This document shows, piece by piece, positions 12,206-58,942 of a stretch of 64,000 bases of DNA. Numbering within the stretch: position 1 is the first letter of the stretch; every line of letters begins with the position of its first letter. The DNA comes from Thermodesulfobacteriota bacterium (GTDB taxonomy: Bacteria > Desulfobacterota > Desulfobacteria > Desulfobacterales > Desulfosudaceae). The stretch is from assembly GCA_040753795.1 (NCBI GenBank), contig JBFMDX010000022.1, forward strand, positions 1 through 64,000, written 5' to 3'. Made by a program: the position numbers and the translations under genes. The notes below the pieces were generated by a model. The model did no database searches. It worked only from the letters and a program-made list of their open reading frames with translations, and was not told where the DNA came from.

Positions 12206-14020
12206 TTACATGAAAGCGTCTTCGGGCATCTGCATGACCGCGGTGTTCATGGCGGCCACGCCGTCCATCTTGCCCATCACGGCCGGGAAAACGGAGGTGA
12301 TGTAGAATTCGGCCGTCTTGACCTGGCCGATGTAGAAGGCTTCATCCTTTTTGACCTTGACGCCGGCCTTGAGGGTTTCAGAAGCCACGGCCGCCCGCCA
12401 CAGGTGCATCCAGGCCATGACCACGTCGCCGACCACTTCCAGGAAGGGGGTGGCCGAGGCAAAGGCGTCCAGCACCCGGTCGGACATGGCGGTGGCGCCG
12501 ATGGTCATGGCCACATCGCCCAGCCGGGCCAGGGCCTTTTCCACGGTTTCAGCCATGGCCTTCAGTTCATCGAACTGCTTGGCCCGGGCCGCGACCGCGC
12601 CGATTTCTCCCAGGAAATCCTTGAAGGGCTTGCTGTTGTTCATGCCCAGCTTGCGGGCCAGCAGGTCCATGGCCTGGATGCCGTTGGTGCCTTCATAAAT
12701 GCTGGTGATTTTACAGTCCCGGACCAGCTGCTCCTGGGGATACTCCTTGATGTAGCCGTAACCGCCGTACACCTGGCAGCCAATGACGCAGACTTCAAAA
12801 CCCCGGTCCGTACAATAGGCCTTGACAACCGGCGTCAGGAATTCGATCAGGCCCTGGTATTTGTCCTTTTCCGCGGCATCGGCGGTAATTTCCACTCGGT
12901 CAAAACAGTGGGCCACGAAATACAGCAGGCCGCGCAAACCTTCCACGTAGGATTTCATCCACAGGAGCTGGCGCCGGACATCCGGGTGTTTGATGATGTT
13001 GACGCTGGGCGCCGCGGCGTTCATGAAATTGAGCAGATCGCGGCCCTGGATCCGTTCCTTGGCGTAGGCCACGGCATTGGCGTAGGAAGTGGCGCCCAGC
13101 GAATAGCCCTGGACGCCCACGCCGAACCGGGCCTCGTTCATCATCAGGAACATGGCCTTCATGCCCTTGTTTTCCTGGCCCAGCAGAGTGCCGATGCAGT
13201 TGCCCTTGCCGCCCAGGGTCAGGGAGCAGGTGGCGTTGCCGTGGATGCCCATTTTCTCCTCGATGCCGGTGCAGACCACGTCGTTGAACTCACCCAGGCT
13301 GCCGTCGGGATTAACCCGGAACTTGGGCACGATAAACAGGGAGATGCCGCGGGTGCCGGCGGGCGCGCCTTCGATGCGGGCCAGGACCGGGTGAATGATA
13401 TTCTCCGTCAGATCATGCTCGCCGGCGGAGATGAAAATCTTGTTGCCGGAGATGGAATAGGTGCCGTCCGGGTTTTTGACGGCGGTGGTGGTCAGGGCGC
13501 CGACATCGGAACCGGCGTCCGGTTCGGTCAGCAGCATGGTGCCGGCCCACTTGCCGGAATACATGTTTTTGACATACATTTTTTTCTGTTCGGGGGTGCC
13601 CAGGGTCTCGATCATCTTGGCGGCACCGTGGCACAGACCGGGGTACATCATGAAGGCCATGTTGGCGCCGGAAAAGAATTCGGCCGCCGCCAGGTTGACG
13701 ACGTGGGGCATGCCCTGGCCGCCGAACTCGGGGTCTTCGGAAGCACCGATCCATTCGCCTTCGCGATAAAGGTCAAAAATCCTTTTAAAGGATTCCGGAG
13801 CGGTGACCTTGCCGTTTTCAAACTTGCATCCGGCATCCCCTTCCACGTTGGCGGGCAGGATTTCCTTCAAGGCCAGATTGCGGGCCTCGGTAACCACCAT
13901 GTCTATGGTTTTCCTGTTAAAATCAGCGAACTTGTCATGTTTTGACAGCTCTTCCACGTGGAGCATTTCATGCAGGACAAAATCGACGTCCCGACGATTG
14001 GAAAGCGTAGCCTGTGCCAT
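12206..14020 (-). CDS. large acyl-CoA dehydrogenase (FadE/DmdC-type, about 600 residues)
   Basis: A FAD enzyme that oxidises an acyl-CoA to the enoyl-CoA, 604 residues, of the long class with an extra C-terminal helical domain (as in DmdC and some FadE). LLTEPDAGSDVGAL (residues 163-176) is the FAD/substrate motif. The catalytic Glu is E443 in SIYEGTNGIQAMDLLARKL. Substrate chain length cannot be read from sequence. The start has AGGAG eight bases upstream. It is a lone gene with its own consensus promoter, operator and terminator, fitting a regulated fatty-acid or branched-acid degradation step. Confidence 0.9.
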   Translation of the reverse strand: MAQATLSNRRDVDFVLHEMLHVEELSKHDKFADFNRKTIDMVVTEARNLALKEILPANVEGDAGCKFENGKVTAPESFKRIFDLYREGEWIGASEDPEFGGQGMPHVVNLAAAEFFSGANMAFMMYPGLCHGAAKMIETLGTPEQKKMYVKNMYSGKWAGTMLLTEPDAGSDVGALTTTAVKNPDGTYSISGNKIFISAGEHDLTENIIHPVLARIEGAPAGTRGISLFIVPKFRVNPDGSLGEFNDVVCTGIEEKMGIHGNATCSLTLGGKGNCIGTLLGQENKGMKAMFLMMNEARFGVGVQGYSLGATSYANAVAYAKERIQGRDLLNFMNAAAPSVNIIKHPDVRRQLLWMKSYVEGLRGLLYFVAHCFDRVEITADAAEKDKYQGLIEFLTPVVKAYCTDRGFEVCVIGCQVYGGYGYIKEYPQEQLVRDCKITSIYEGTNGIQAMDLLARKLGMNNSKPFKDFLGEIGAVAARAKQFDELKAMAETVEKALARLGDVAMTIGATAMSDRVLDAFASATPFLEVVGDVVMAWMHLWRAAVASETLKAGVKVKKDEAFYIGQVKTAEFYITSVFPAVMGKMDGVAAMNTAVMQMPEDAFM

Positions 14021-43598: not shown

Positions 43599-44651
<1,053 letters not shown>

Positions 44652-45131: not shown

Positions 45132-47522
45132 TTACCCTAGATCCATTGCATTCCTCGCGTCCAGAAGCCGCGCGCATACATCCTCAATTTCCTTTCTTGA
45201 TACTTGGGTCTTCAATGGCCATTGTGCGGTCACGGTCAGGAGGCTTAGCCCTATGGTGCCATCCACATTTTTTAACGTCGCAACGTTCAGTTTCGACAAA
45301 GCCTTAGTCTTTGCTGTCGGGAGGTATTTGGCAACATTGCGATGATCCCATTCTGAGCGAATTTTGGTCAACTCAATGTGAACAACAATTGTATCCCCTT
45401 CATTATGCAATTTTAACTTGATCCGCTTCGAAGGATCGATCCCGTGAACGTGAACTTCCCTCCCAAAGTCGTGGGAGTCAATACTGCCATCTGATTCTAG
45501 GCAAACCGCCATTTCCTCAAGCACGAGAGGATTACTGCTCGATACTTGATCGCTGAAGGTCATTCGATATGCTTCTCGAAACGCTTCTATCGCTGAGGTG
45601 AACGGGAGACGCGACTGTTGTTTATCTCTGGTGCATCCTTCCACCGTTCTGGCCAGATACGATGGAAGACAACGCCAGTTGCAGGAAAACCTCGTGCGAA
45701 TACTGTCTCTCACGTGTTCTTTGAATTTATGGAAGTTTTGCTCGTTGGGGCGTGGGTCATCACCAACGAAAAGAAAATAGGCAAGCATCCCGTATCCAAA
45801 AGTATCGACTGCCGTATGTCGAGTACTTACACCAGCTTTCATGCCAGTAGCGGTCTGCTCTGGGGCCGCATAGCCTTGGGCGCGAGCACCATGAACTACT
45901 GACAAGTCCGACGCTCCTTTGTGCCAGGATAGATCGAAATCAAGCACTACTACATCAATGGGATCGCCCTTATTGTAGCCATCCCGCAATATGACGTTGT
46001 CGGGCTTGAGGTCTCTGTGCAGAACGCGCTCCTCAAGGTCGTGAGCAGTATGAACAACATCTCCGATTTGCACGAGAACATCAAGTGTCTGCTGTAACGA
46101 GTCGAGCAACCCCCAATTCTTGGCCTCCGTCAACGTTGGTCCATCTATGAATTCCATCAAAACGCAGGCAGGGACCTCGAATGCATTTATGAACTTGACC
46201 ATCTTCGGGACATTTTTTTGTGTAAGTATCTTCATTGAGCGTACGCCGCGTCGAAAGCTATTGAGGTATTCGCTATCACTTCGTACCTCTTGGAGTAGCA
46301 CTTTTAGTGCTGCGCGTTCCCCAGTGTCCAACTTTTCTGCTTCGTACACTTGTCCGAAAGCACCTCTGCCCTTTCCTGCCACCATCTTGTACCCGTGAAC
46401 AACATCGCATTCTGAGTTTGGCTGGATCAGCCATGCCATATGGATTGCTCTCAGGTGGTCTGCATAGAACTTCTCGAGCATGTCTATGTCATTTGTCTTG
46501 GGTGTCGTGTTAGGAGGAATTATGCTGGCTACTGCTTTGTTGAGAAGCTCTCTGACATGATGCACTGGCATTGTGAGGAGGTCGGCATCACTTGGGAGCG
46601 AACCGAGGTCAGTCTGGCCACCGGTGAAGACGGAGGCGGGGATATCGTCCTCCGGTAGGAATTTAAGAAAGTCACGTAGCGTTTCCTCTATTTCTGGATG
46701 ACTGTTTGGATCGCTCGGACGATAGGGAATCACTGCAAATCCTTGATTGCCGTATGTGTTAACTATTCCTGAATCGGTGCGTGACAACAAAAGGTAGTGT
46801 CGTGATCCAATTGTACCAGGCTCTGTGACTACTTTCTGGAGCAGATACGAGAAGGCGAAGTCGTCAGGATCGAATCCTACTATCAACAAATGTTTCGTCT
46901 GGCATAGGGATTGGACAAATTTTGTATAGGTACTGCTGGCAAGCAAACCTCCGAGCTCGGCCTGCGTGAAAACCCATGTTGACGGATCAGAGACATGTCC
47001 GTGGGGCTGGAACACAAACTGTTGAGGACCTATGAGGAATCTACTGAATTTTGCCGTCTCTTTCGCCGTTGCTGTGTCCACAGCTGATCGATGTACCTTG
47101 GAATATGAGTCAACGGCGCATGTGTCTATGTTGTACGTCATAATTCCCTTCACATCGAGTTGCCAAAGTAATTCGTAGGTGACAGGGATGCTGCTCTTAT
47201 CTTTGAGCGTGAGGCGTTCCCTGATAGCCTCTTCGTACGCCTCTTTGGAGAGGATTCCTTGCAGTTCAGTAAAACACCTCCATAGATCGGTATTCTCGGC
47301 GATACGGTTCAAGCGTTCCTTGTGCCCTTGACGTTCCAGTTCGGGGATCTCTGAAATTCTGTTGCGAGCGTTGTCGACAAGATGACCACGAAGATTGGTC
47401 CACGTTGGAAGGCCGCACGGTCGAGACATACCTGCGCCTACTATTACAACGAAGTCTTTCGGGTTCTCGCGGATTCGTGACCGCAAGTCAATGTAATCGG
47501 GATGCCGTTTATCTAATGTCAT
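45132..47522 (-). CDS. SIR2-domain and Ser/Thr protein kinase fusion, candidate defence protein
   Basis: 796 residues with GGAGG seven bases before ATG. Residues 20-290 form a SIR2-like NAD-binding domain: VVIVGAGMS (25-33), TYNIDTC (N131, D133) and PHGH (H174, H176). Residues 375-655 form a Hanks-type kinase: GRGAFGQVYEA (G385, G387, G390, V392), Lys K407 in ALKVL, HRDLKPDN (D504, N509), DFD in place of DFG (D528), APEQ (553) and the helix-F Asp D573. A C-terminal beta-rich region (660-796) is unassigned. SIR2 domains of phage-defence proteins deplete NAD; here the kinase could sense infection and control that. Codon use is more AT-rich than in neighbours, hinting at transfer. Confidence 0.9.
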   Translation of the reverse strand: MTLDKRHPDYIDLRSRIRENPKDFVVIVGAGMSRPCGLPTWTNLRGHLVDNARNRISEIPELERQGHKERLNRIAENTDLWRCFTELQGILSKEAYEEAIRERLTLKDKSSIPVTYELLWQLDVKGIMTYNIDTCAVDSYSKVHRSAVDTATAKETAKFSRFLIGPQQFVFQPHGHVSDPSTWVFTQAELGGLLASSTYTKFVQSLCQTKHLLIVGFDPDDFAFSYLLQKVVTEPGTIGSRHYLLLSRTDSGIVNTYGNQGFAVIPYRPSDPNSHPEIEETLRDFLKFLPEDDIPASVFTGGQTDLGSLPSDADLLTMPVHHVRELLNKAVASIIPPNTTPKTNDIDMLEKFYADHLRAIHMAWLIQPNSECDVVHGYKMVAGKGRGAFGQVYEAEKLDTGERAALKVLLQEVRSDSEYLNSFRRGVRSMKILTQKNVPKMVKFINAFEVPACVLMEFIDGPTLTEAKNWGLLDSLQQTLDVLVQIGDVVHTAHDLEERVLHRDLKPDNVILRDGYNKGDPIDVVVLDFDLSWHKGASDLSVVHGARAQGYAAPEQTATGMKAGVSTRHTAVDTFGYGMLAYFLFVGDDPRPNEQNFHKFKEHVRDSIRTRFSCNWRCLPSYLARTVEGCTRDKQQSRLPFTSAIEAFREAYRMTFSDQVSSSNPLVLEEMAVCLESDGSIDSHDFGREVHVHGIDPSKRIKLKLHNEGDTIVVHIELTKIRSEWDHRNVAKYLPTAKTKALSKLNVATLKNVDGTIGLSLLTVTAQWPLKTQVSRKEIEDVCARLLDARNAMDLG

Positions 47523-47801
47523 CGACTAACCTCCAGTGATAGACGCTGGTCGTCTGCCGCGGCTGTCACAACCGCTGTGTGTATAGGATTTCTCTGAGTT
47601 CTTTTTTAAGATCACATTATTTATTATATTGACTGCTTGCTTCTATCCCCCATTTGCAATTCTGCCACTTAAGGATGAAATGTCATGGTGGATTGTTACC
47701 CAGCTTGAATTTTTCCTTGACGGCATAGAGCATGTGAATTCCGTTGGCAGTATAAATATTTTTGATAGCTTAAATGCTGGCATCGGAATTGCGTAGATAT
47801 C
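47523..47801. other. AT-rich intergenic region
   Basis: Between the SIR2-kinase start and the zinc-finger gene stop. Contains the ribosome site of the kinase gene. No gene, clear promoter or terminator recognised. Confidence 0.4.
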
Positions 47802-48080
47802 TTATTGTACAGGAACCAGATCAGTATCCCATGCTTTGAAGATCTCATCCTCTGGCTTGTTGTTGCATGAGTAGCACATGGGCAAAATGTATTCCTTGTT
47901 CCCTCTTCCGGCCTTAATCACGTGCCCACCGAGAGTGGGATTCCCTTTGCACAGCATAACTTCGCATGTCGCCGCCTTCTTTCCCTTCTTCTTCTCCCAG
48001 AAGTCCAACCAACTCTCGTAACCTGCCGGAGGCGTTTTGCTCGATGTGCCTTTCTTGTTTTTCACGTCGATGAAGCTCAT
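47802..48080 (-). CDS. small HNH-like/treble-clef zinc-finger protein
   Basis: 92 residues from ATG at 48080 with AAGGAG seven bases upstream. The layout is WLDFWEKKKGKKAATCEVML, CKGNPTLGGHVIKAG, then YILPMCYSCNN: two CxxxxC-type and CxxC pairs around a GGHV segment. This is the pattern of small uncharacterised treble-clef proteins related to HNH nucleases, but without a clear catalytic HNH set. It lies between hsdM and the SIR2-kinase gene on the same strand. Function unknown. Confidence 0.7.
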   Translation of the reverse strand: MSFIDVKNKKGTSSKTPPAGYESWLDFWEKKKGKKAATCEVMLCKGNPTLGGHVIKAGRGNKEYILPMCYSCNNKPEDEIFKAWDTDLVPVQ

Positions 48081-48223: not shown

Positions 48224-49741
48224 TTATTTCCCATTAATCGTTTCCATAATCTCTTTGAAGCTCGACAGACCGGCTTCGATGTTTTCGATGATTTCGCTGG
48301 CAAGGATATCGGGATCGGGAAGGTTGTCCAGGTCGGTCAGGCTTTTGTCCTTGAGCCAGAAGATGTCCAGGTTAGTTTTGTCGCGGGCAATGATTTCCGG
48401 GTAAGTGAATTTCCGCCAGCGGCCTTCGGGATTTGTGTCCGACCAGGTTTCCTGGCGGTCGTGGCGGTTGGCGGGATTATAGCATTTCACAAAGTCGAGC
48501 AGGTCTTCGAGTTGCATGGGCGACTTTTTCAGGGTGTGATGGATATTGGTCCGGTAGTCATAGACCCAGACCGCTTTGGTCCAGGGGTCCCGCGAAGCCG
48601 GCTTGTTGTCGAAAAAGAGCACATTGGCCTTGACTCCCTGGGCGTAGAAAATACCCGTGGGCAAGCGCAGGATGGTGTGCAGATCGGTGGTTTTCATCAG
48701 TTCCCTGCGCACGGTTTCGCCGGCGCCGCCTTCAAACAGCACATTGTCCGGCAGCACCACCGCGGCCTGGCCAGTTACTTTCAGCAGCGTGCGGATATGC
48801 TGCAGGAAGTTGAGCTGTTTGTTGCTGGTGGTGGCCCAGAAGTCCTGGCGGTTGTAGCTTAAATCCTGCTTTTCCTGTTCGCCGGCTTCGTTGGTGATGG
48901 TCATGCTGCTTTTCTTGCCAAAGGGCGGATTGGCCAGCACGTAATCCGCCCGGATGCCTTCGTCGCTGATCAGGGCGTCGTTGGACGAGATAAAGGATTC
49001 GCCGTCGATCTCCCCGATGTTGTGCAGGAACATGTTCATCAGGCAGAGCCGGCGGGTGCCGGCCACGATTTCATTGCCGGAAAAGGTGCTGTTTTTCAAA
49101 AATACCTTCTGATCCCGGTCGAGTTTATAGTTGGCCGTGATATAGTCATAGGCGGCCAGAAAAAAACCGCCCGTGCCGCAGGCCGGGTCATGAATGGTGT
49201 TGCCGGGCCGCGGGGCCACGCACTGCACCATGGCCTTGATCAGAGCCCGCGGGGTAAAATACTGGCCCGCGCCGCTTTTGGTGTCGGCGGCGTTTTTTTC
49301 CAGCAACCCCTCGTAAATGTCGCCTTTGATATCCGCCCCCACCATGGTCCACTGTTCCTGGCCGATCATGTCGATGATCTTGAGCAGCTTGGCCGGGTCC
49401 TGAATCTTGTTCTGGGACTTGGTGAAAATCTGGCCCAGCGTCCCTTTTTCCGATCCCAGGGAACGCAGCATTTGAGTATAATAGGATTCCAGCTCCGCAC
49501 CCCGCTTGCGGCTCAAGGTCGGCCAGTCGCAGGGCTCGCCGTCCGGCAGTTCATGACCTTCGGTATCCTTGATTTTCGGAAAATGAATGTTCTTGTTGTA
49601 TGGCGGGCGGCTCATCTCATCGGCCATTTTCAGAAACAGCAGGTAGGTGATCTGCTCCAGATAATCGCCGTAGCCCACGCCGTCATCGCGCAGCACGTGG
49701 GCAAAATTCCATACTCTGGATATCAGGTTTGATTCGTTCAT
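48224..49741 (-). CDS. hsdM: type I restriction-modification methyltransferase subunit HsdM
   Basis: 505 residues, N6-adenine methyltransferase. The N-terminal HsdM domain (LISRVWNFAHVLRDDGVGYG) is followed by motif I DPACGTGG (185-192), motif IV NPPF (271-274) and the loop VVLPDNVLFEGGAGETVRREL. Its ATG overlaps the stop of the RAYT transposase gene by four bases, so hsdM may be translated by coupling to it. Works with HsdS and HsdR encoded upstream on the same strand. Confidence 0.95.
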   Translation of the reverse strand: MNESNLISRVWNFAHVLRDDGVGYGDYLEQITYLLFLKMADEMSRPPYNKNIHFPKIKDTEGHELPDGEPCDWPTLSRKRGAELESYYTQMLRSLGSEKGTLGQIFTKSQNKIQDPAKLLKIIDMIGQEQWTMVGADIKGDIYEGLLEKNAADTKSGAGQYFTPRALIKAMVQCVAPRPGNTIHDPACGTGGFFLAAYDYITANYKLDRDQKVFLKNSTFSGNEIVAGTRRLCLMNMFLHNIGEIDGESFISSNDALISDEGIRADYVLANPPFGKKSSMTITNEAGEQEKQDLSYNRQDFWATTSNKQLNFLQHIRTLLKVTGQAAVVLPDNVLFEGGAGETVRRELMKTTDLHTILRLPTGIFYAQGVKANVLFFDNKPASRDPWTKAVWVYDYRTNIHHTLKKSPMQLEDLLDFVKCYNPANRHDRQETWSDTNPEGRWRKFTYPEIIARDKTNLDIFWLKDKSLTDLDNLPDPDILASEIIENIEAGLSSFKEIMETINGK

Positions 49742-50331
49742 GCGTTTATTCGTTCCTCGTAAAGCGCATCCGCCTTCCAGTTCATCGGGTTGTTTTGAAT
49801 ATAATTTTGAATTTTATAATAGGAATCGGCGTTACGAATAATATGATCATAAAAACGGGATTGCCATGTGAAATCATACCCCAGGCGATGTGCGTGTTTG
49901 GTTACCGCCGATTTGTATGACCCTATAATGGATGACAGGGTGTTTTTCCCCTGGTTTTGAAACCGGTTCCGGCCAATGGTCTGGGACGGCAATTGTAGAG
50001 ACAAGGCATGCCTTGTCTCTACGGAATTATCGGTATCGTTGCCTTTACCGTTCAGGGTTAAAATACCGTGGATATGGTTCGGCATGACCACAAATGGGCC
50101 CAATTCCACGCCGGGTGCGTGATGTTGTATTTCGTACCAGCATGTTTCGGCTAATGTTCCGAGTGGGGATAAATGCATTTTATCCTGAACAATGGCCCCG
50201 AAATAACATTTGCGATTTTCTGTGCAGATGGTGACAAAATAAGACGCGCTCCACCCATAATCCCAGTTTTGCAGCCGGGTGGATGGGATACGATATTTAT
50301 TTTGATATTTGTCCATCACGTCGTGCATCAT
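49738..50331 (-). CDS. REP-associated tyrosine transposase (RAYT, IS200-like Y1 family)
   Basis: 197 residues. The HUH nuclease motif is VVMPNHIHGILTL (H86, H88) and the catalytic Tyr is Y139 in SSIIGSYKSAVTKHA. The N-terminal YFVTICTENRKCYF is typical of RAYTs, which act on REP hairpins. Residues 103-113 (SVETRHALSLQ) are encoded by an in-frame copy of the local 28-bp palindrome. The gene sits between hsdS and hsdM and overlaps hsdM by four bases. No clear ribosome site; ATG at 50316 is an alternative start. Confidence 0.9.
   Translation of the reverse strand: MMHDVMDKYQNKYRIPSTRLQNWDYGWSASYFVTICTENRKCYFGAIVQDKMHLSPLGTLAETCWYEIQHHAPGVELGPFVVMPNHIHGILTLNGKGNDTDNSVETRHALSLQLPSQTIGRNRFQNQGKNTLSSIIGSYKSAVTKHAHRLGYDFTWQSRFYDHIIRNADSYYKIQNYIQNNPMNWKADALYEERINA
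49995..50022. repeat. 28-bp palindrome, copy 1 (inside the RAYT gene)
   Basis: Perfect palindrome with arms GTAGAGACAAGGCA / TGCCTTGTCTCTAC. Inside the transposase coding sequence, in frame, adding about ten residues between the HUH motif and the catalytic Tyr. Confidence 0.95.
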
Positions 50332-50555: not shown

Positions 50556-51902
50556 CTAGTTTTTCATTTGTTTTTCACCTGTTTTTTTTGCAGACCGGCC
50601 GGATTTTTCTTTTTGAATTCTTTCCAGCAGACTGGCTGCCGGCTCCCAGTCCGGTTCCCGGCGACAGGCCGCAAGCTCGGCCTCGTCGAGCAGTTTTCCG
50701 GCAAAGGCTTTCTTCAGGATACTCTGGCGCAGGGCTTCGGATTGTTCAAGGCTCTGGTCGATGCTCTCGGCCAGTTTGTCGCACACGGAGAGGCGGGATT
50801 CGATGGCGGCAACGATGACGGTTTGTTCTCCAATCGCACACACTTTCATCATCAAGGTTGAAAACTTGCCTTTATTCAAAATCGGCAACGTTGTGGAAGA
50901 AGCTCTTTTCTTTATTTGAGTTTGGAAATCTATTCCGATAGCTTGATAATAGACATATTTTGGGTTGTATTTGTCCGATGGAATTATTGCATTAATCTGC
51001 TGGTTAAAACATCCTCTCAATTTTATGAGCCCTGTCTTTCCAATTGTTGCACCTATGCAAGTCACAAGGATCGAATTTTCTGGGGCTTGGCGACCATTTT
51101 GAAACCCCTTAAGTGAAAGGCCATCGATAGATTTAAAAACATTATGGCCTGCTTCAAGGTCAGTCGGCTTGTAAAAATTGTAATCGTGGGACGAATAGAA
51201 TTCTTCGTTTTTTTTGGATGGGGTATTTCCAGTAACTATTTCTCCAATTTGTGAAATCATCAGCTCCTGCCATCCATTTACATCTCTTTGTTCCCGCCAC
51301 TCCCGTGTCAACTCCCCCTCAAACGCCTTTTTCAGCAAGGCCTGGCGGTAGATGTCCAGTTTGGCTTTGGCGGCTTTGAGGTTGGCGATGCCGTTGTCCA
51401 GATCGCTGAAGAGCTTCTCTATTTTGGCGACGATGGCGCGTTGTTCGGGGAGGGGGGCGAGGGGGATTGGTAATGCAGAGAATGCTTTCGCTGACAATTC
51501 TTTAAAGGTTGTTCCGCTTGCGTGGTTTTCGGCCTTCTGCTTTATGGATTTGAAATAATAATAGATAAATTCACTGTTGAGACAATCGAACGGCACTAAA
51601 CTTTTAAAGCCTTGGTTTGTGCAAATGTTATTTTTCGCTATGGCGACATATCCGATTGGCGCTCTTGAAGAAAACAATACGCTATTTGCTGGCATCAGTT
51701 TAGCCGAAGAATTTTTTAATCCTGTTGCGGTAATTGATTTTCTTCCTTTCGAAATAAACTTTTGAGTATAGCCAGATAAGTCAGCCGGTGTAACCCATGG
51801 TATTTCATCACCCCAGTATTCAGCATTTGATGTTTTCGGGGTTCCTCCTGAAATGACTTTCCCGGCATTGCCTATATCTGTTTCAACCCAATCTTGTCTC
51901 AT
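50556..51902 (-). CDS. hsdS: type I restriction-modification specificity subunit HsdS
   Basis: 448 residues with two target-recognition domains in tandem: first GKVISGGTPKTSNAEYWGDE onward, second IGEIVTGNTPSKKNEEFYSS onward. The first conserved spacer helix region is PLPEQRAIVAKIEKLFSDLD with YRQALLKKAFEGELTREW; the second is IESRLSVCDKLAESIDQSLE with LRQSILKKAFAGKLL. These spacers set the gap between the two DNA half-sites. The Lys-rich tail may be non-essential. Recognition sequence not predictable. Confidence 0.94.
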   Translation of the reverse strand: MRQDWVETDIGNAGKVISGGTPKTSNAEYWGDEIPWVTPADLSGYTQKFISKGRKSITATGLKNSSAKLMPANSVLFSSRAPIGYVAIAKNNICTNQGFKSLVPFDCLNSEFIYYYFKSIKQKAENHASGTTFKELSAKAFSALPIPLAPLPEQRAIVAKIEKLFSDLDNGIANLKAAKAKLDIYRQALLKKAFEGELTREWREQRDVNGWQELMISQIGEIVTGNTPSKKNEEFYSSHDYNFYKPTDLEAGHNVFKSIDGLSLKGFQNGRQAPENSILVTCIGATIGKTGLIKLRGCFNQQINAIIPSDKYNPKYVYYQAIGIDFQTQIKKRASSTTLPILNKGKFSTLMMKVCAIGEQTVIVAAIESRLSVCDKLAESIDQSLEQSEALRQSILKKAFAGKLLDEAELAACRREPDWEPAASLLERIQKEKSGRSAKKTGEKQMKN

Positions 51903-52080: not shown

Positions 52081-54873
52081 TCATGCCGCCAGGGCCTCGT
52101 TCAATTCTTCCAGCAGAGCATCCGTCTGGTCGCCAAAGAGCTGCCACATCCTTCCCCGGCCGCCCTTGGCGTCAAAGGGGGTGTAGTCCAAGTCGTCTAC
52201 GCCCACATGAAAGCTGGCGGCTACATGGTCCTTGATCAGGCGCAGCCAGGCCATCTGCTCTTCGGTGAACTTTTGCCCGGCGCCGCCGTGCTTTTTAAAA
52301 ATCCAGTCCTTGAAATTTCTGTCCACGATGTGATTGTACGGGGTCAACTGACTGTCAATGCCGGTCACTCTCCGGATGAGGGAAACCAGGGCCGCCAGTT
52401 CACTTTTGGGGCTGTTGCCTTTTATCTCTTCCAACTGGGCATAGGCGTCCCACACATAATGGGGGGCCAGCAGGGGCTTTTCCCGTTTTAAAGTTTCCAG
52501 CACCTCCTTGATCATGGCATAGGTCAGTTCCCGGCGGCGATACGGCTGGTCGTAAAAAATGCTTAAGGCGATGATCTCGTTTTTATTTTTTTCAATATAG
52601 GCGGTAAAATCCTCGATCATTTGCTGGGCTTTTTCCGTGGAATAGCTGTCCCACTCGGCTTTGCGGAGTCTGTCCGGGTTGACCGTGTCGATGATCTGCT
52701 CATGGACTTTGCGCACATTTTCGATGTATTCGTTCAGCTCGCCGGTAAATACGGACGCGGCTTGACGCCGCAGGGCATCGAGTTCTTTTTCAATGTCCTG
52801 TTTGATTTCAGCCGGCGGAAACCCCGGTTTGGCCTGCTCGATTTTTGATTGCACCTTTTCGACGGTGTCCGGGTTGTAGGCATTAAGCAGGTCGCCGGCC
52901 GCCTGGTTGATGGTTTTGCCGCCTGAGAGTTTTTCAAACCAGGCCTTTTCGTCGTCAGTGAGCTGCCGGTGCAGGCGGATGAGGCGGTTGGCCAGAGAGG
53001 TAAACAGGTCTTCGTCCTGAACGCCCATGGCCACGGCCCCCAGCAGGTCCTTTAAGGGAATGCCGGGTTTGCGCTCCAGGGGTCGGGAGTCGGTTTTTTT
53101 GGATTTGGTGGCGCCCACGGCATCCACAATCACAAAATGGGTTTTGGTGTGGCGGGCCGTGCGGGAGACCTTTCTTAAATCGTCAAAGTTGAGGGTGCGG
53201 GTGCCCCGGCCCTTCATCTGCTCAAAATAGTTGCTGCTTTTCACATCCCGCATGAACAGCAGCACCTCCAGGGGCCTGACATCCGTGCCGGTGGCGATCA
53301 TGTCCACGGTCACGGCAATCCGCGGCGCCCAGGAGTTGCGGAAGCGGGTCAGGACCGACCGGGGATCTTCATCCGCCTTGTAGGTGATTTTTTTGCAGAA
53401 ATCATTGCCCTCGCCGAGCTCCTCGCGGATGATCTGGATAATATCGTCGGCGTGGCTGTCGGTCTTGGCAAAGACCAGGGTTTTGGGCACTTCAATTTTA
53501 CCGTTTTCATCCACGCGGTCCGGAAAAATGGTCGGCAGGGCCTCTTTATAGGCCCGGATAATCCGGCGGATCTGGCTGGGATTGACCACCTCCCTGTCCA
53601 GGTTGCCGGCGGTGTAGGCGAAATCATCGTCCAGTTGTTCCCAGCGTTTTTTGCGGCTCATCCGTTCCCGCTTGTCCACATATTCTTTGGCCTTGATGCT
53701 GGCGCCGGCTTTGGTGATTTCCGTTTCAATGGTGAAGACGTCATAGGGCACGTTCACCCCGTCCACCACCGAATCTTCATAGCTGTATTCGCTGACCACG
53801 TTTGCGTTGAAGAAGCCGAAGGTGCGCTTGTCGGGCGTGGCGGTCAGGCCCACCAGAAAGGCGTCAAAATATTCCAGCACCTGCTTCCACAGGTTGTAGA
53901 TGGAGCGGTGACACTCGTCAATGACGATAAAGTCAAACTGCTCCACCGGGTATCGGGGCGTGAAGGCCACGGGGACGGGTTCTTTTTTCTGCCATTGCCA
54001 GGCGGATTCGTTGGGATTTTCCAGCTCCGCGGCTTCATCCATTTCTTCGCCCTTTAAAATGGAATAAAGTCGCTGAATGGTGGAGATGCAGACCTGGCTG
54101 TCGGAGGCGATATAGCCCGAGTTCAGGCGCTGCACATTATAAAGCTCGGTGAATTTGCGGTTGTCGTCGGTGGGCTGGTATTTTAAAAATTCCTGCTCGG
54201 CCTGTTCGCCCAGGTTGCGGGTGTCTACCAGAAACAGGACGCGCCGGGCATGGGCGTGCTTTAACAGGCGATAAATAAAGGTGCAGGCGGTAAATGTTTT
54301 TCCGGCGCCGGTGGCCATCTGAATCAGGGCCCGAGGATGGTTGGTTTTTAATGACGCCTCCAGGTTCCGGATGGCCCTGATCTGGGCCGGACGCAAGCCT
54401 GCTTCATTGAGCGCGGGCATGTTTTCAAGCCGGGCCCGCAGGGTTTGCTTTTGTGTCTGCCATTCGGCCAGGGTTTCCGGCTGATAAAAATGAAACACCG
54501 GCCGGGAGCGGGGCCTGGGGTCCCGGTAATCGGTAAACCGGGTCAATACCCCGGTGCTTTCATACACAAACGGCAGGGGTTCCTGGTTGAGATTGTACTT
54601 TAACTTCGCCTGGGCATATGACGCGGACTGTTCTTCGTGAGTGGTAAGCCGTTCGCCTTCTTCTTCCCGCTTGGCCTCAATGACGCCGACGGGTTTTCCG
54701 TTTACAAACAGAACATAGTCGGCCGGGCCGATATCCGTCTGGTATTCCCAGACCGCCACGCCTTTGCCGGCCGACAGGTTCACCTTGTTTTTGGACTGCA
54801 CCACCCATCCGGCCGCGACCAGCATCCGGTCGATCTCGTCCCGCGCTTTTTGTTCCGGCGTCTGGTTTGTCAT
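52081..54873 (-). CDS. hsdR: type I restriction enzyme motor/nuclease subunit HsdR
   Basis: 930 residues of the EcoEI-like group. The N-terminal PD-(D/E)xK nuclease is GPADYVLFVNGKPVGVIEAK (D52, E66, K68). The SF2 translocase follows with Walker A MATGAGKT (186-193), DECH (319-322), VGLTATPDKRT and the motif VI region YFEQMKGRGTRTLNF. The C-terminal helical domain ends DALLEELNEALAA. With HsdS and HsdM it forms the restriction complex. Reads first in the R-S-(RAYT)-M order. Confidence 0.95.
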   Translation of the reverse strand: MTNQTPEQKARDEIDRMLVAAGWVVQSKNKVNLSAGKGVAVWEYQTDIGPADYVLFVNGKPVGVIEAKREEEGERLTTHEEQSASYAQAKLKYNLNQEPLPFVYESTGVLTRFTDYRDPRPRSRPVFHFYQPETLAEWQTQKQTLRARLENMPALNEAGLRPAQIRAIRNLEASLKTNHPRALIQMATGAGKTFTACTFIYRLLKHAHARRVLFLVDTRNLGEQAEQEFLKYQPTDDNRKFTELYNVQRLNSGYIASDSQVCISTIQRLYSILKGEEMDEAAELENPNESAWQWQKKEPVPVAFTPRYPVEQFDFIVIDECHRSIYNLWKQVLEYFDAFLVGLTATPDKRTFGFFNANVVSEYSYEDSVVDGVNVPYDVFTIETEITKAGASIKAKEYVDKRERMSRKKRWEQLDDDFAYTAGNLDREVVNPSQIRRIIRAYKEALPTIFPDRVDENGKIEVPKTLVFAKTDSHADDIIQIIREELGEGNDFCKKITYKADEDPRSVLTRFRNSWAPRIAVTVDMIATGTDVRPLEVLLFMRDVKSSNYFEQMKGRGTRTLNFDDLRKVSRTARHTKTHFVIVDAVGATKSKKTDSRPLERKPGIPLKDLLGAVAMGVQDEDLFTSLANRLIRLHRQLTDDEKAWFEKLSGGKTINQAAGDLLNAYNPDTVEKVQSKIEQAKPGFPPAEIKQDIEKELDALRRQAASVFTGELNEYIENVRKVHEQIIDTVNPDRLRKAEWDSYSTEKAQQMIEDFTAYIEKNKNEIIALSIFYDQPYRRRELTYAMIKEVLETLKREKPLLAPHYVWDAYAQLEEIKGNSPKSELAALVSLIRRVTGIDSQLTPYNHIVDRNFKDWIFKKHGGAGQKFTEEQMAWLRLIKDHVAASFHVGVDDLDYTPFDAKGGRGRMWQLFGDQTDALLEELNEALAA

Positions 54874-55280: not shown

Positions 55281-55952
55281 TTAATAATTCATTAATTTTT
55301 GCGCCAGGCGGTGAAGGTCCGGGTTCGCCAGGGCGGAAACTTTTTTCTTTACCGAACGGGAATAATATTCCCTTTCGGTTTTGGTTAACAGTTCGCCTTG
55401 CAGCTTCTTTTTAAACAGCTCCTTTTGCTTTGGCGAGAACAATTGGGACAGGGCATACTCAAGAGACAAATTCTCATATTGTTCCTTGATCTGTTTGGTC
55501 TTTTCAGCATCCTGCGCAAAATAATTTTTAAACGTTTCTTTTAAGCGTGAAGGATCAAACTGTTTGTTACCGAAGGAGACCGATTGATTATGGGCCAAAG
55601 CATTTTTCAGCTCCCGCAGACGATCAAGGTCTTGCCGCAAAAGACTTTTTTTAAATTGCTGCGCCCATACAAAAGAAAAATGATGGTGTTGATACAAGGC
55701 TAACGATAATAACGACAGGAATCGCAGGCTTTTTTGTTCCCCGCTTTTTGTCGTATTTTTCATGACCTGGTCGTAATTAAAAGCGGGTTCTTTAACGGCA
55801 TTGGCCAGCAAAACAGGGAAGCCTTCCCACAATCGGGTATCGTTGCTTTTAACAACCTCGGCAAGCGTTTGATTAACATCAAAATCTTCCGTTGTTTCCA
55901 TAACTGAAAAACCAAGGCGGTTTAAATCTTTTAGCAAGGTTTTTTTAACCAT
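55281..55952 (-). CDS. uncharacterised protein paired with a nucleotidyltransferase remnant
   Basis: 223 residues, overlapping the remnant upstream by eight bases (ATGGTTAA). All-helical, Lys- and Leu-rich; RELKNALAHNQSV recalls the HEPN-type R/K-N-x3-H motif but with Lys in place of Arg. The C-terminal block LLTKTEREYYSRSVKKKVSA followed by LANPDLHRLAQKL is one I recall from many unrelated bacterial proteins. It may be the toxin-like or partner half of a nucleotidyltransferase pair. Function not assigned. Confidence 0.6.
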   Translation of the reverse strand: MVKKTLLKDLNRLGFSVMETTEDFDVNQTLAEVVKSNDTRLWEGFPVLLANAVKEPAFNYDQVMKNTTKSGEQKSLRFLSLLSLALYQHHHFSFVWAQQFKKSLLRQDLDRLRELKNALAHNQSVSFGNKQFDPSRLKETFKNYFAQDAEKTKQIKEQYENLSLEYALSQLFSPKQKELFKKKLQGELLTKTEREYYSRSVKKKVSALANPDLHRLAQKLMNY

Positions 55953-57894: not shown

Positions 57895-58482
57895 TTACGA
57901 CTTGGCAAACGCCAAAAGGGAAGTGTACCTGCCGTTGTCCGCCTCCTGAAGGGCTTTGATATATCTGCCCCTGGTTTCACCCGGACTCGATAAATCCCGT
58001 CCGCCCCAGGTGAAGGCCGGCCCGTGAAGAACATTTTCTAAAAAAAGATCCGTCATGATGCGCGCGTGGCGTCCGTTGCCATTGGAAAAGGGGTGAATCC
58101 ACACCAGTCGATGATGAAAACGCACCGCCATTTCTTCAGGCCCTTCACTTTTTGACTGGATCCACACGGGCACATCGGCAAACATGTTGTCAAGACACCT
58201 GGGGACCTCCTGCCATGATACGCCGATGTTTTTATCAGACCTGCGAAATCGCCCCGCCCATTTCCAGACATTGCCGAACATTTTTTTGTGCAGTTTTTTG
58301 ACGAACTGCTCATTTAGAATATCGACCGGTTTTATTCTGGCAACCCAGTCCAACGCCTCAATAATGTTATCCTGTTCCCAGCGATTCAATTCGCCTTGAG
58401 TCGTTATGTGGGTAAGCAGCAAGCCGTCCGCCTCATCCGGATCAATGGGGGTGGCATCTTCCGGATATGTGAAATCAATCAT
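57895..58482 (-). CDS. mobile mystery protein B, Fic-family
   Basis: 195 residues from ATG at 58482, overlapping the A gene by eight bases (ATGATTGA). The Fic motif is H130-PFSNGNGRHAR, with Asn where most Fic enzymes have Asp. WKWAGRFRRSDKNIGVSWQE is the other conserved segment of this family, which is always found beside mobile mystery protein A. The pair behaves like a toxin-antitoxin-type mobile cassette; the biochemical target is unknown. Confidence 0.9.
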   Translation of the reverse strand: MIDFTYPEDATPIDPDEADGLLLTHITTQGELNRWEQDNIIEALDWVARIKPVDILNEQFVKKLHKKMFGNVWKWAGRFRRSDKNIGVSWQEVPRCLDNMFADVPVWIQSKSEGPEEMAVRFHHRLVWIHPFSNGNGRHARIMTDLFLENVLHGPAFTWGGRDLSSPGETRGRYIKALQEADNGRYTSLLAFAKS

Positions 58483-58942
58483 TATGGTCGTCCCAGAGCG
58501 TTGCGGGAAGCGTCCGTATGAGTTCATCCGCCAGGGCCGACAGGACCCGGGCGTTCTCCTTCCTGCTGAGCGCCTGTTTCTCCAGTCGCATCGTTTGGGA
58601 AGCCTTGGAAAGGCGCTTGATGGCGACCCGTTGTGCCTGACGGGCGACCGTCTCCTCCAGGCTTGTCCGCGGCACAAACCCGTAAACAAAAACGCAATCA
58701 AGACTATCGGCGATGCGGCGCATGGTTTTGATGGTGACCGAACCCGACAGTTCTTCTTTCTCGATACGCGCTACCGCCTGCTGAGCGACGCCGAGCCGTT
58801 CGGCCAATTGCCTGGCGGTCATCCCCAGGGCGCCGCGGATAGCGCGGATCCAGCCTTTCGGCGGCGCCACAGCGTTACGCAGAGGGCTGAAACGTTCTAA
58901 AGAGACATCAAGCTGCTCTCTTATCAATTTCTTTTTATCCAT
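58475..58942 (-). CDS. mobile mystery protein A, HTH regulator
   Basis: 155 residues. The helix-turn-helix is MTARQLAERLGVAQQAVARI followed by EKEELSGSVTIKTMRRIADS, an XRE-type domain. The remainder is helical and specific to the family. Its start lies about 30 bases from the first of two AT-rich palindromes, fitting autoregulation. Encoded first, with the Fic partner coupled behind it. Confidence 0.9.
   Translation of the reverse strand: MDKKKLIREQLDVSLERFSPLRNAVAPPKGWIRAIRGALGMTARQLAERLGVAQQAVARIEKEELSGSVTIKTMRRIADSLDCVFVYGFVPRTSLEETVARQAQRVAIKRLSKASQTMRLEKQALSRKENARVLSALADELIRTLPATLWDDHND

Follow-up and report, generated by a model that had tools for sequence, protein, structure and literature searches.

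A rare single-chain fusion of SIR2-like, Hanks-type kinase and predicted chaperone-fold domains in bacteria

Can a SIR2-type NADase be gated by a protein kinase carried on the same polypeptide chain? The question is raised by a gene (45132..47522, minus strand) in a stretch of 64,000 nucleotides from a Thermodesulfobacteriota bacterium, which is referred to here as the window. Known switches of the SIR2 NADases that act in phage defence are cyclic nucleotides, Argonaute, HerA, STAND NTPases and the direct binding of phage proteins. If the answer were yes, control by a kinase on the same chain would constitute a further gate on NAD+ loss, linking phosphorylation to bacterial suicide.

The open reading frame starts with an ATG at position 47522, and a Shine–Dalgarno-like GGAGG (47530..47534, minus strand) is located 7 nt 5' of it. 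The initial annotation had read its 796-residue product as a SIR2-like domain joined to a Hanks-type kinase. Both domains were recovered by Pfam (SIR2_2 and Pkinase) and in colinear relatives, and every residue that had been named is exactly placed: GAGMS at 29–33, N131/D133, H174/H176, K407, D504, D528 and APE at 553–555. The low-GC codon use noted at the same time is reflected in a GC3 of 0.51, compared with about 0.64–0.86 for most window genes, and the gene was therefore likely acquired recently.

To delimit the domains, we combined alignment with an AlphaFold2 model of the whole protein, computed from eight sequences (mean pLDDT 77.8). The SIR2-like, NADase-type domain occupies residues about 8–290 (46653..47501, minus strand), as judged from Pfam, the model and conservation. 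It is followed by a helical linker, residues about 291–372 (46407..46652, minus strand), placed from the alignment and the secondary structure of the model, in which R324, L327 and N328 are invariant. The Hanks-type kinase domain comprises residues about 373–654 (45561..46406, minus strand). Finally, a C-terminal domain with a predicted type III-secretion-chaperone/YbjN (TY-chaperone) fold, residues 655–796 (45135..45560, minus strand), closes the chain.

The kinase domain is identified by Pfam (Pkinase at residues 385–645, E = 1.7e-24), by alignment and by conservation, and its predicted fold is complete, with a VIA match to PknB of Z 24.6. K407 (in AALKV), D504 of the HRD motif, N509 and D528 are conserved wherever these positions are covered, and most relatives have HRDLRPxN or a similar sequence in place of HRDLKPxN in the catalytic loop. 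The DFD in place of DFG, pointed out at the outset, is found at residues 528–530, with D530 standing for the Gly, and is common to all members covering the site (14/14). Alignment to S. aureus PknB/Stk1 placed the position of the αC Glu at Gly426, within an FRRGV motif, in all 12 of the 12 members covering it. Ser541 of the activation segment, invariant in the eight aligned members, is a candidate phosphosite.

Without the αC Glu, phosphotransfer may be weak or absent, and the domain might then be a pseudokinase that binds ATP, or a nucleotide pool altered by the phage, and serves as a scaffold or gate from the C-terminal sensor to the SIR2 domain without phosphorylating anything. We consider this possibility doubtful, although it is the likeliest of the rival readings. 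It draws on the replacement of both the αC Glu and the DFG glycine in all members covering these sites, and on the vWA/MoxR conflict systems, in which most S/T/Y kinase domains are catalytically disrupted (PMC7159879). However, the retention of Lys407 (in β3), Asp504, Asn509 and Asp528 would be odd for a dead enzyme. The human Mnk kinases also carry a DFD motif and are active. Furthermore, in the relative L022 a PP2C-like phosphatase gene (12349–13014, plus strand; E = 1.6e-4, below the Pfam cut-off) overlaps the 3' end of the SIR2–kinase gene by 4 nt, which suggests reversible phosphorylation, in that member at least, and argues against a pseudokinase. A conserved PP2C partner was rejected as a general feature of the family, since only L022 has one.

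In the PADLOC library, the nearest kinases were MAD6 (1.5e-30), PD-T4-6 (3.7e-28) and MkoA in 8/8 members scanned. These models, from MADS Mad6, PD-T4-6 and Mokosh MkoA, are matched over the kinase domain only, and the NCBIfam MAD6 model scored 71.9 bits against a cut-off of 460, short of what a full-length Mad6 requires.

At the other end of the chain, Pfam SIR2_2 matched residues 127–250 (E = 2.7e-14). The predicted fold of residues 6–290 superposes on DSR2 (VIA Z 24.2, 2.7 Å over 256 residues), ThsA (Z 23.9) and KomC (Z 23.8). N131 (codon 47132–47130, minus strand) and H174 (codon 47003–47001, minus strand) align with the catalytic pair of ThsA and are kept in 10/11 and 11/11 full-length members, respectively. 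Of the two histidines proposed initially, H174 is conserved and is the catalytic equivalent, while H176 varies among relatives. The zinc-binding CxxC of deacetylase sirtuins is absent from residues 1–300 of every full-length member. The modelled fold and the conserved Asn and His thus favour the proposal that the domain is of the phage-defence NADase type. It would accordingly be expected to cleave NAD+, for which the equivalent pair of DSR2, N133/H171, is needed (PMC11087589).

Each of these NADases resembles the fusion in this domain and differs from it elsewhere. DSR2 shares the N-terminal position of the SIR2 domain but continues into a long C-terminal part that binds the phage tail tube, where the fusion has a kinase and a chaperone-fold domain. 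ThsA of Thoeris (SIR2–SLOG) has the same fold and catalytic pair, whereas its cyclic ADP-ribose signal acts through the SLOG domain; Pfam found no SLOG in the fusion, and no ThsB/TIR gene was recognised among the neighbours scanned. Kongming KomC, close in fold, has no kinase, and neither has FAM118B, whose SIR2 domain matches weakly by sequence. The Lamassu LmuA model of PADLOC (PDLC03856) matches the SIR2 part of the window protein (residues 23–285, E = 2.2e-16), with no LmuB recognised among the window neighbours scanned.

One member departs from this pattern. In the Spirilliplanes relative L021 (10001–12349, plus strand), GSQF replaces GAGxS and N131 is changed to Ser, while the kinase and C-terminus are kept; given this eroded site, some members may get by without SIR2 activity. 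The SIR2 domain could also make a signal or ADP-ribosylate a protein rather than deplete NAD+, as in the suggestion that SIR2 domains of conflict systems might work as ADP-ribosyltransferases (PMC9503650). We regard this as unlikely, because the best-matching solved structures, ThsA, DSR2 and KomC, are NADases with the same catalytic pair.

The C-terminus, described at first as beta-rich and unassigned, gave no convincing family match by sequence but can now be given a predicted fold. Modelled alone with AlphaFold2 from ten sequences (pLDDT 84, pTM 0.79), it displayed an α–ββββ–α–ββ–α topology like that of Spa15 and YbjN. The VIA matches were led by Spa15 (Z 9.3, 3.5 Å over 123 residues), SycN–YscB (8.6) and SycT (8.5), followed by YbjN (8.4), DR_1245 (8.2) and AmyR (8.2), and nearly all of the best 12 were class I type III secretion chaperones and YbjN proteins. 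In a Foldseek search, the first match was YbjN (E = 3e-4). As the sequence identity to the structural matches is 9–10% and Z 9.3 is moderate, we take the model to predict the TY-chaperone fold as a fold class only. These folds have been grouped by Iyer et al. as peptide-binding ‘TY-chaperones’ that are present in NAD+/ADP-ribose conflict systems (PMC9503650), and a peptide-sensing role of the C-terminus is therefore plausible; by this analogy, it is reasonable to suppose that the domain senses a peptide. Compared with the type III-secretion chaperones, YbjN and TY-Chap1–3, which share the predicted fold of residues 655–796, the fusion adds a kinase and a SIR2 domain.

Scanning viral and genome contigs with peptide patterns derived from a single sequence returned no relatives, because such patterns are not conserved, and the family was recovered only through a DNA pattern that encodes the unusual motif VLDFDLSWH. 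In viral contigs, this pattern led to two loci, both encoding full-length SIR2–kinase proteins. Aligned with the window protein, they yielded eight loci in genome contigs: six in Frankiaceae, Corallococcus, Spirilliplanes, a proteobacterial MAG, Limnoglobus and Dechloromonas, and two partial ones in Chloroflexi and Planctomycetaceae. The Limnoglobus locus is identical with one of the two viral-contig loci. Searches of whole genomes with an eight-member alignment (A2) gave carriage of 1/200, 2/145, 4/198 and 2/200 across the sampled groups, counts that include the seed genomes themselves. When the whole protein or its SIR2 part alone was searched for in sets of about 390 genomes from the same class or phylum as the window organism, no other fusion turned up; plasmid and phage records held none covering 80% of the query, and no DNA-level match to the copy in a P2-type phage setting (L028) was found in E. 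coli.

Including the window gene, the family amounts to 11 distinct full-length, 2 partial and 2 broken copies. The relatives of the window gene number at least 14 and come from five phyla (Actinomycetota, Myxococcota, Planctomycetota, Pseudomonadota and Chloroflexota). One of the broken copies carries an in-frame stop, and the other is split into two open reading frames. The relatives are 27–31% identical to the window protein over its whole length, colinear and without large gaps. Since colinear full-length relatives occur in several phyla, the fusion is not an accident of chance, annotation or assembly. It is therefore old and maintained. The sequences show directly that the SIR2 and kinase domains are conserved in one chain with the C-terminus, that the SIR2 catalytic residues are intact and that the gene has spread on mobile elements. 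In a tree of 14 members, most forks were poorly resolved and the window member sat on a long branch; naming its closest relative was given up for these reasons.

The initial annotation had proposed a survey of the neighbourhoods of homologues. In support of its reading, several relatives reside on mobile elements: L028 adjoins GPA, Ogr and GPD, all genes of P2-type phages, L022 has a serine resolvase on one side and a tyrosine integrase on the other, L023 adjoins a TrwC relaxase with RecT nearby, and L040, on a short contig, is close to an integrase and to a gene weakly matching Rep. At least five others (L019, L020 of Corallococcus, L024 of Dechloromonas, L039 and L042), on the other hand, are solitary copies between housekeeping genes, outside defence islands; their neighbours include a phosphoglucomutase-family gene, an arginase-family gene, moaA, dnaE/rtcB, and an argininosuccinate-lyase-type gene together with an HflX-type GTPase. 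The flanking genes differ from genome to genome. Patchy occurrence, varied flanks and broken copies together mark the fusion as a single gene that is mobile and can be dispensed with.

The solitary copies beside housekeeping genes, and the relatively frequent matches in the kinase-rich Myxococcota and Planctomycetota, would also suit a kinase of stress or developmental signalling with an NAD-related SIR2 module and no role in defence. We hold this to be improbable, since an accessory gene better accounts for the patchiness (1 of 389 genomes in the class of the window organism carries the fusion) as well as for the varied flanks, the phage and conjugative neighbours and the broken copies.

The reading that we favour, with a probability of roughly 0.55, is that of a mobile NADase suicide receptor contained in a single protein, in which sensing by the C-terminus would set a kinase switch and thereby NAD+ hydrolysis by the SIR2 domain. 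The ligand of the C-terminal domain would be an extended or unstructured stretch, either of a phage protein or of a host protein that infection has perturbed. Its binding would shift the kinase domain in the middle of the chain into another state, either through ATP-dependent trans-autophosphorylation (for example at the invariant Ser541) or through a nucleotide-bound conformational switch. The change in the kinase would free the N-terminal SIR2 domain, which would hydrolyse NAD+ through N131/H174, so that growth would stop before phage release. The protein would thus presumably act in abortive infection, as initially suggested.

We favour this suicide receptor because the SIR2 domain matches DSR2, ThsA and KomC, all of them defence NADases, in its predicted fold and, in the full-length members, lacks the zinc cysteines; because the kinase is nearest to defence kinases in every member scanned; because the C-terminal fold class occurs in NAD+/ADP-ribose conflict systems (PMC9503650); and because several copies have phage or other mobile-element genes beside them, two copies are broken, the distribution across phyla is patchy and the window gene has a low GC3. 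Against it count the solitary copies, of which there are at least five, the eroded SIR2 site of L021, the missing αC Glu and the moderate C-terminal fold match (Z 9.3, 9% identity). The layout of effector (SIR2), switch (kinase) and candidate sensor (chaperone fold) parallels that of STAND receptors, Avs5 for example, except that a kinase replaces the NTPase. Tentatively, and with the odds against it, the family might even represent an undescribed class of single-chain prokaryotic immune receptor, in which the role of the STAND NTPase would fall to a divergent kinase, set between an NADase effector and a chaperone-fold sensor for segments of phage proteins. As the family is compact, with one gene of about 790 codons, it is directly testable.

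The statement that no characterised system has this layout agrees with our searches of PADLOC, of the PDB and of the literature. All 8 of the 8 members scanned with PADLOC matched only single-domain parts of its models, NCBIfam gave no equivalog above cut-off for the window protein, and none of the PDB sequence matches listed spans both domains. No description of a SIR2–kinase fusion was found in the searchable papers, a set mostly outside subscription papers and preprints; a 2023 review on defence domains treats SIR2 systems, with kinases absent from its text (PMC10952713). The SIR2–kinase–chaperone-fold family is real, rare and mobile, and it appears to be undescribed; it probably belongs with the SIR2 NADase suicide proteins as a new variant.

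Within the window, a set of hsdR, hsdS and hsdM that looks complete precedes the gene on the same strand, so that the gene is downstream of it: HsdR (52081..54873, minus strand), HsdS (50556..51902, minus strand) and HsdM (48224..49741, minus strand), the restriction, specificity and methyltransferase subunits of a type I RM system. The fusion gene is located upstream of a SoFic-like Fic gene (43599..44651, minus strand; PADLOC SoFic, E = 3e-63). These neighbours, together with a RAYT-like gene and a second Fic gene, are present as first described. As a hint of function they did not hold up: among the subset of flanking open reading frames scanned, no hsd genes were recognised next to the relatives examined, nor did the RM/RAYT/Fic set recur there, so that a conserved link to type I RM was rejected and this neighbourhood is local, with no functional link. 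A role as a PrrC-like guard of the adjoining RM genes, set off by a phage that inactivates restriction, is highly improbable for the fusion protein despite the shared strand and downstream position, given a gap of about 700 nt from hsdM that holds a small open reading frame, a ribosome-binding site of its own and the lack of recognised RM genes by the relatives in the part of the flanks scanned.

The small open reading frame in this gap (47802–48080, minus strand; 92 aa) has Cys/His residues reminiscent of an HNH or zinc-ribbon protein; Pfam and PADLOC gave no match to it. Between hsdS and hsdM, the RM genes are interrupted by the REP-associated tyrosine transposase (RAYT)-like gene (49738–50331, minus strand; NCBIfam NF047646, E = 2e-15, below its cut-off), whose GC3 is 0.51, compared with 0.72–0.75 in hsdM and hsdR. 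Upstream of hsdR, a 223-aa open reading frame without a Pfam match (55281–55952, minus strand) has the lowest GC among the window genes checked (0.41) and is perhaps further cargo of the island. The island is bracketed by the two Fic genes, the second of which encodes a ‘mobile mystery protein B’ (57895–58701, minus strand; TIGR02613, E = 1e-73).

Stand-alone SIR2 relatives without a kinase were also found on plasmids. One of them, L011 (6980–7819, plus strand), is carried by a Hymenobacter plasmid, immediately after genes for DUF4007, a DndC-like PAPS reductase and DUF262; the locus may be a defence system of the phosphorothioation type whose effector is the SIR2 protein. Another, L012, adjoins ligD.
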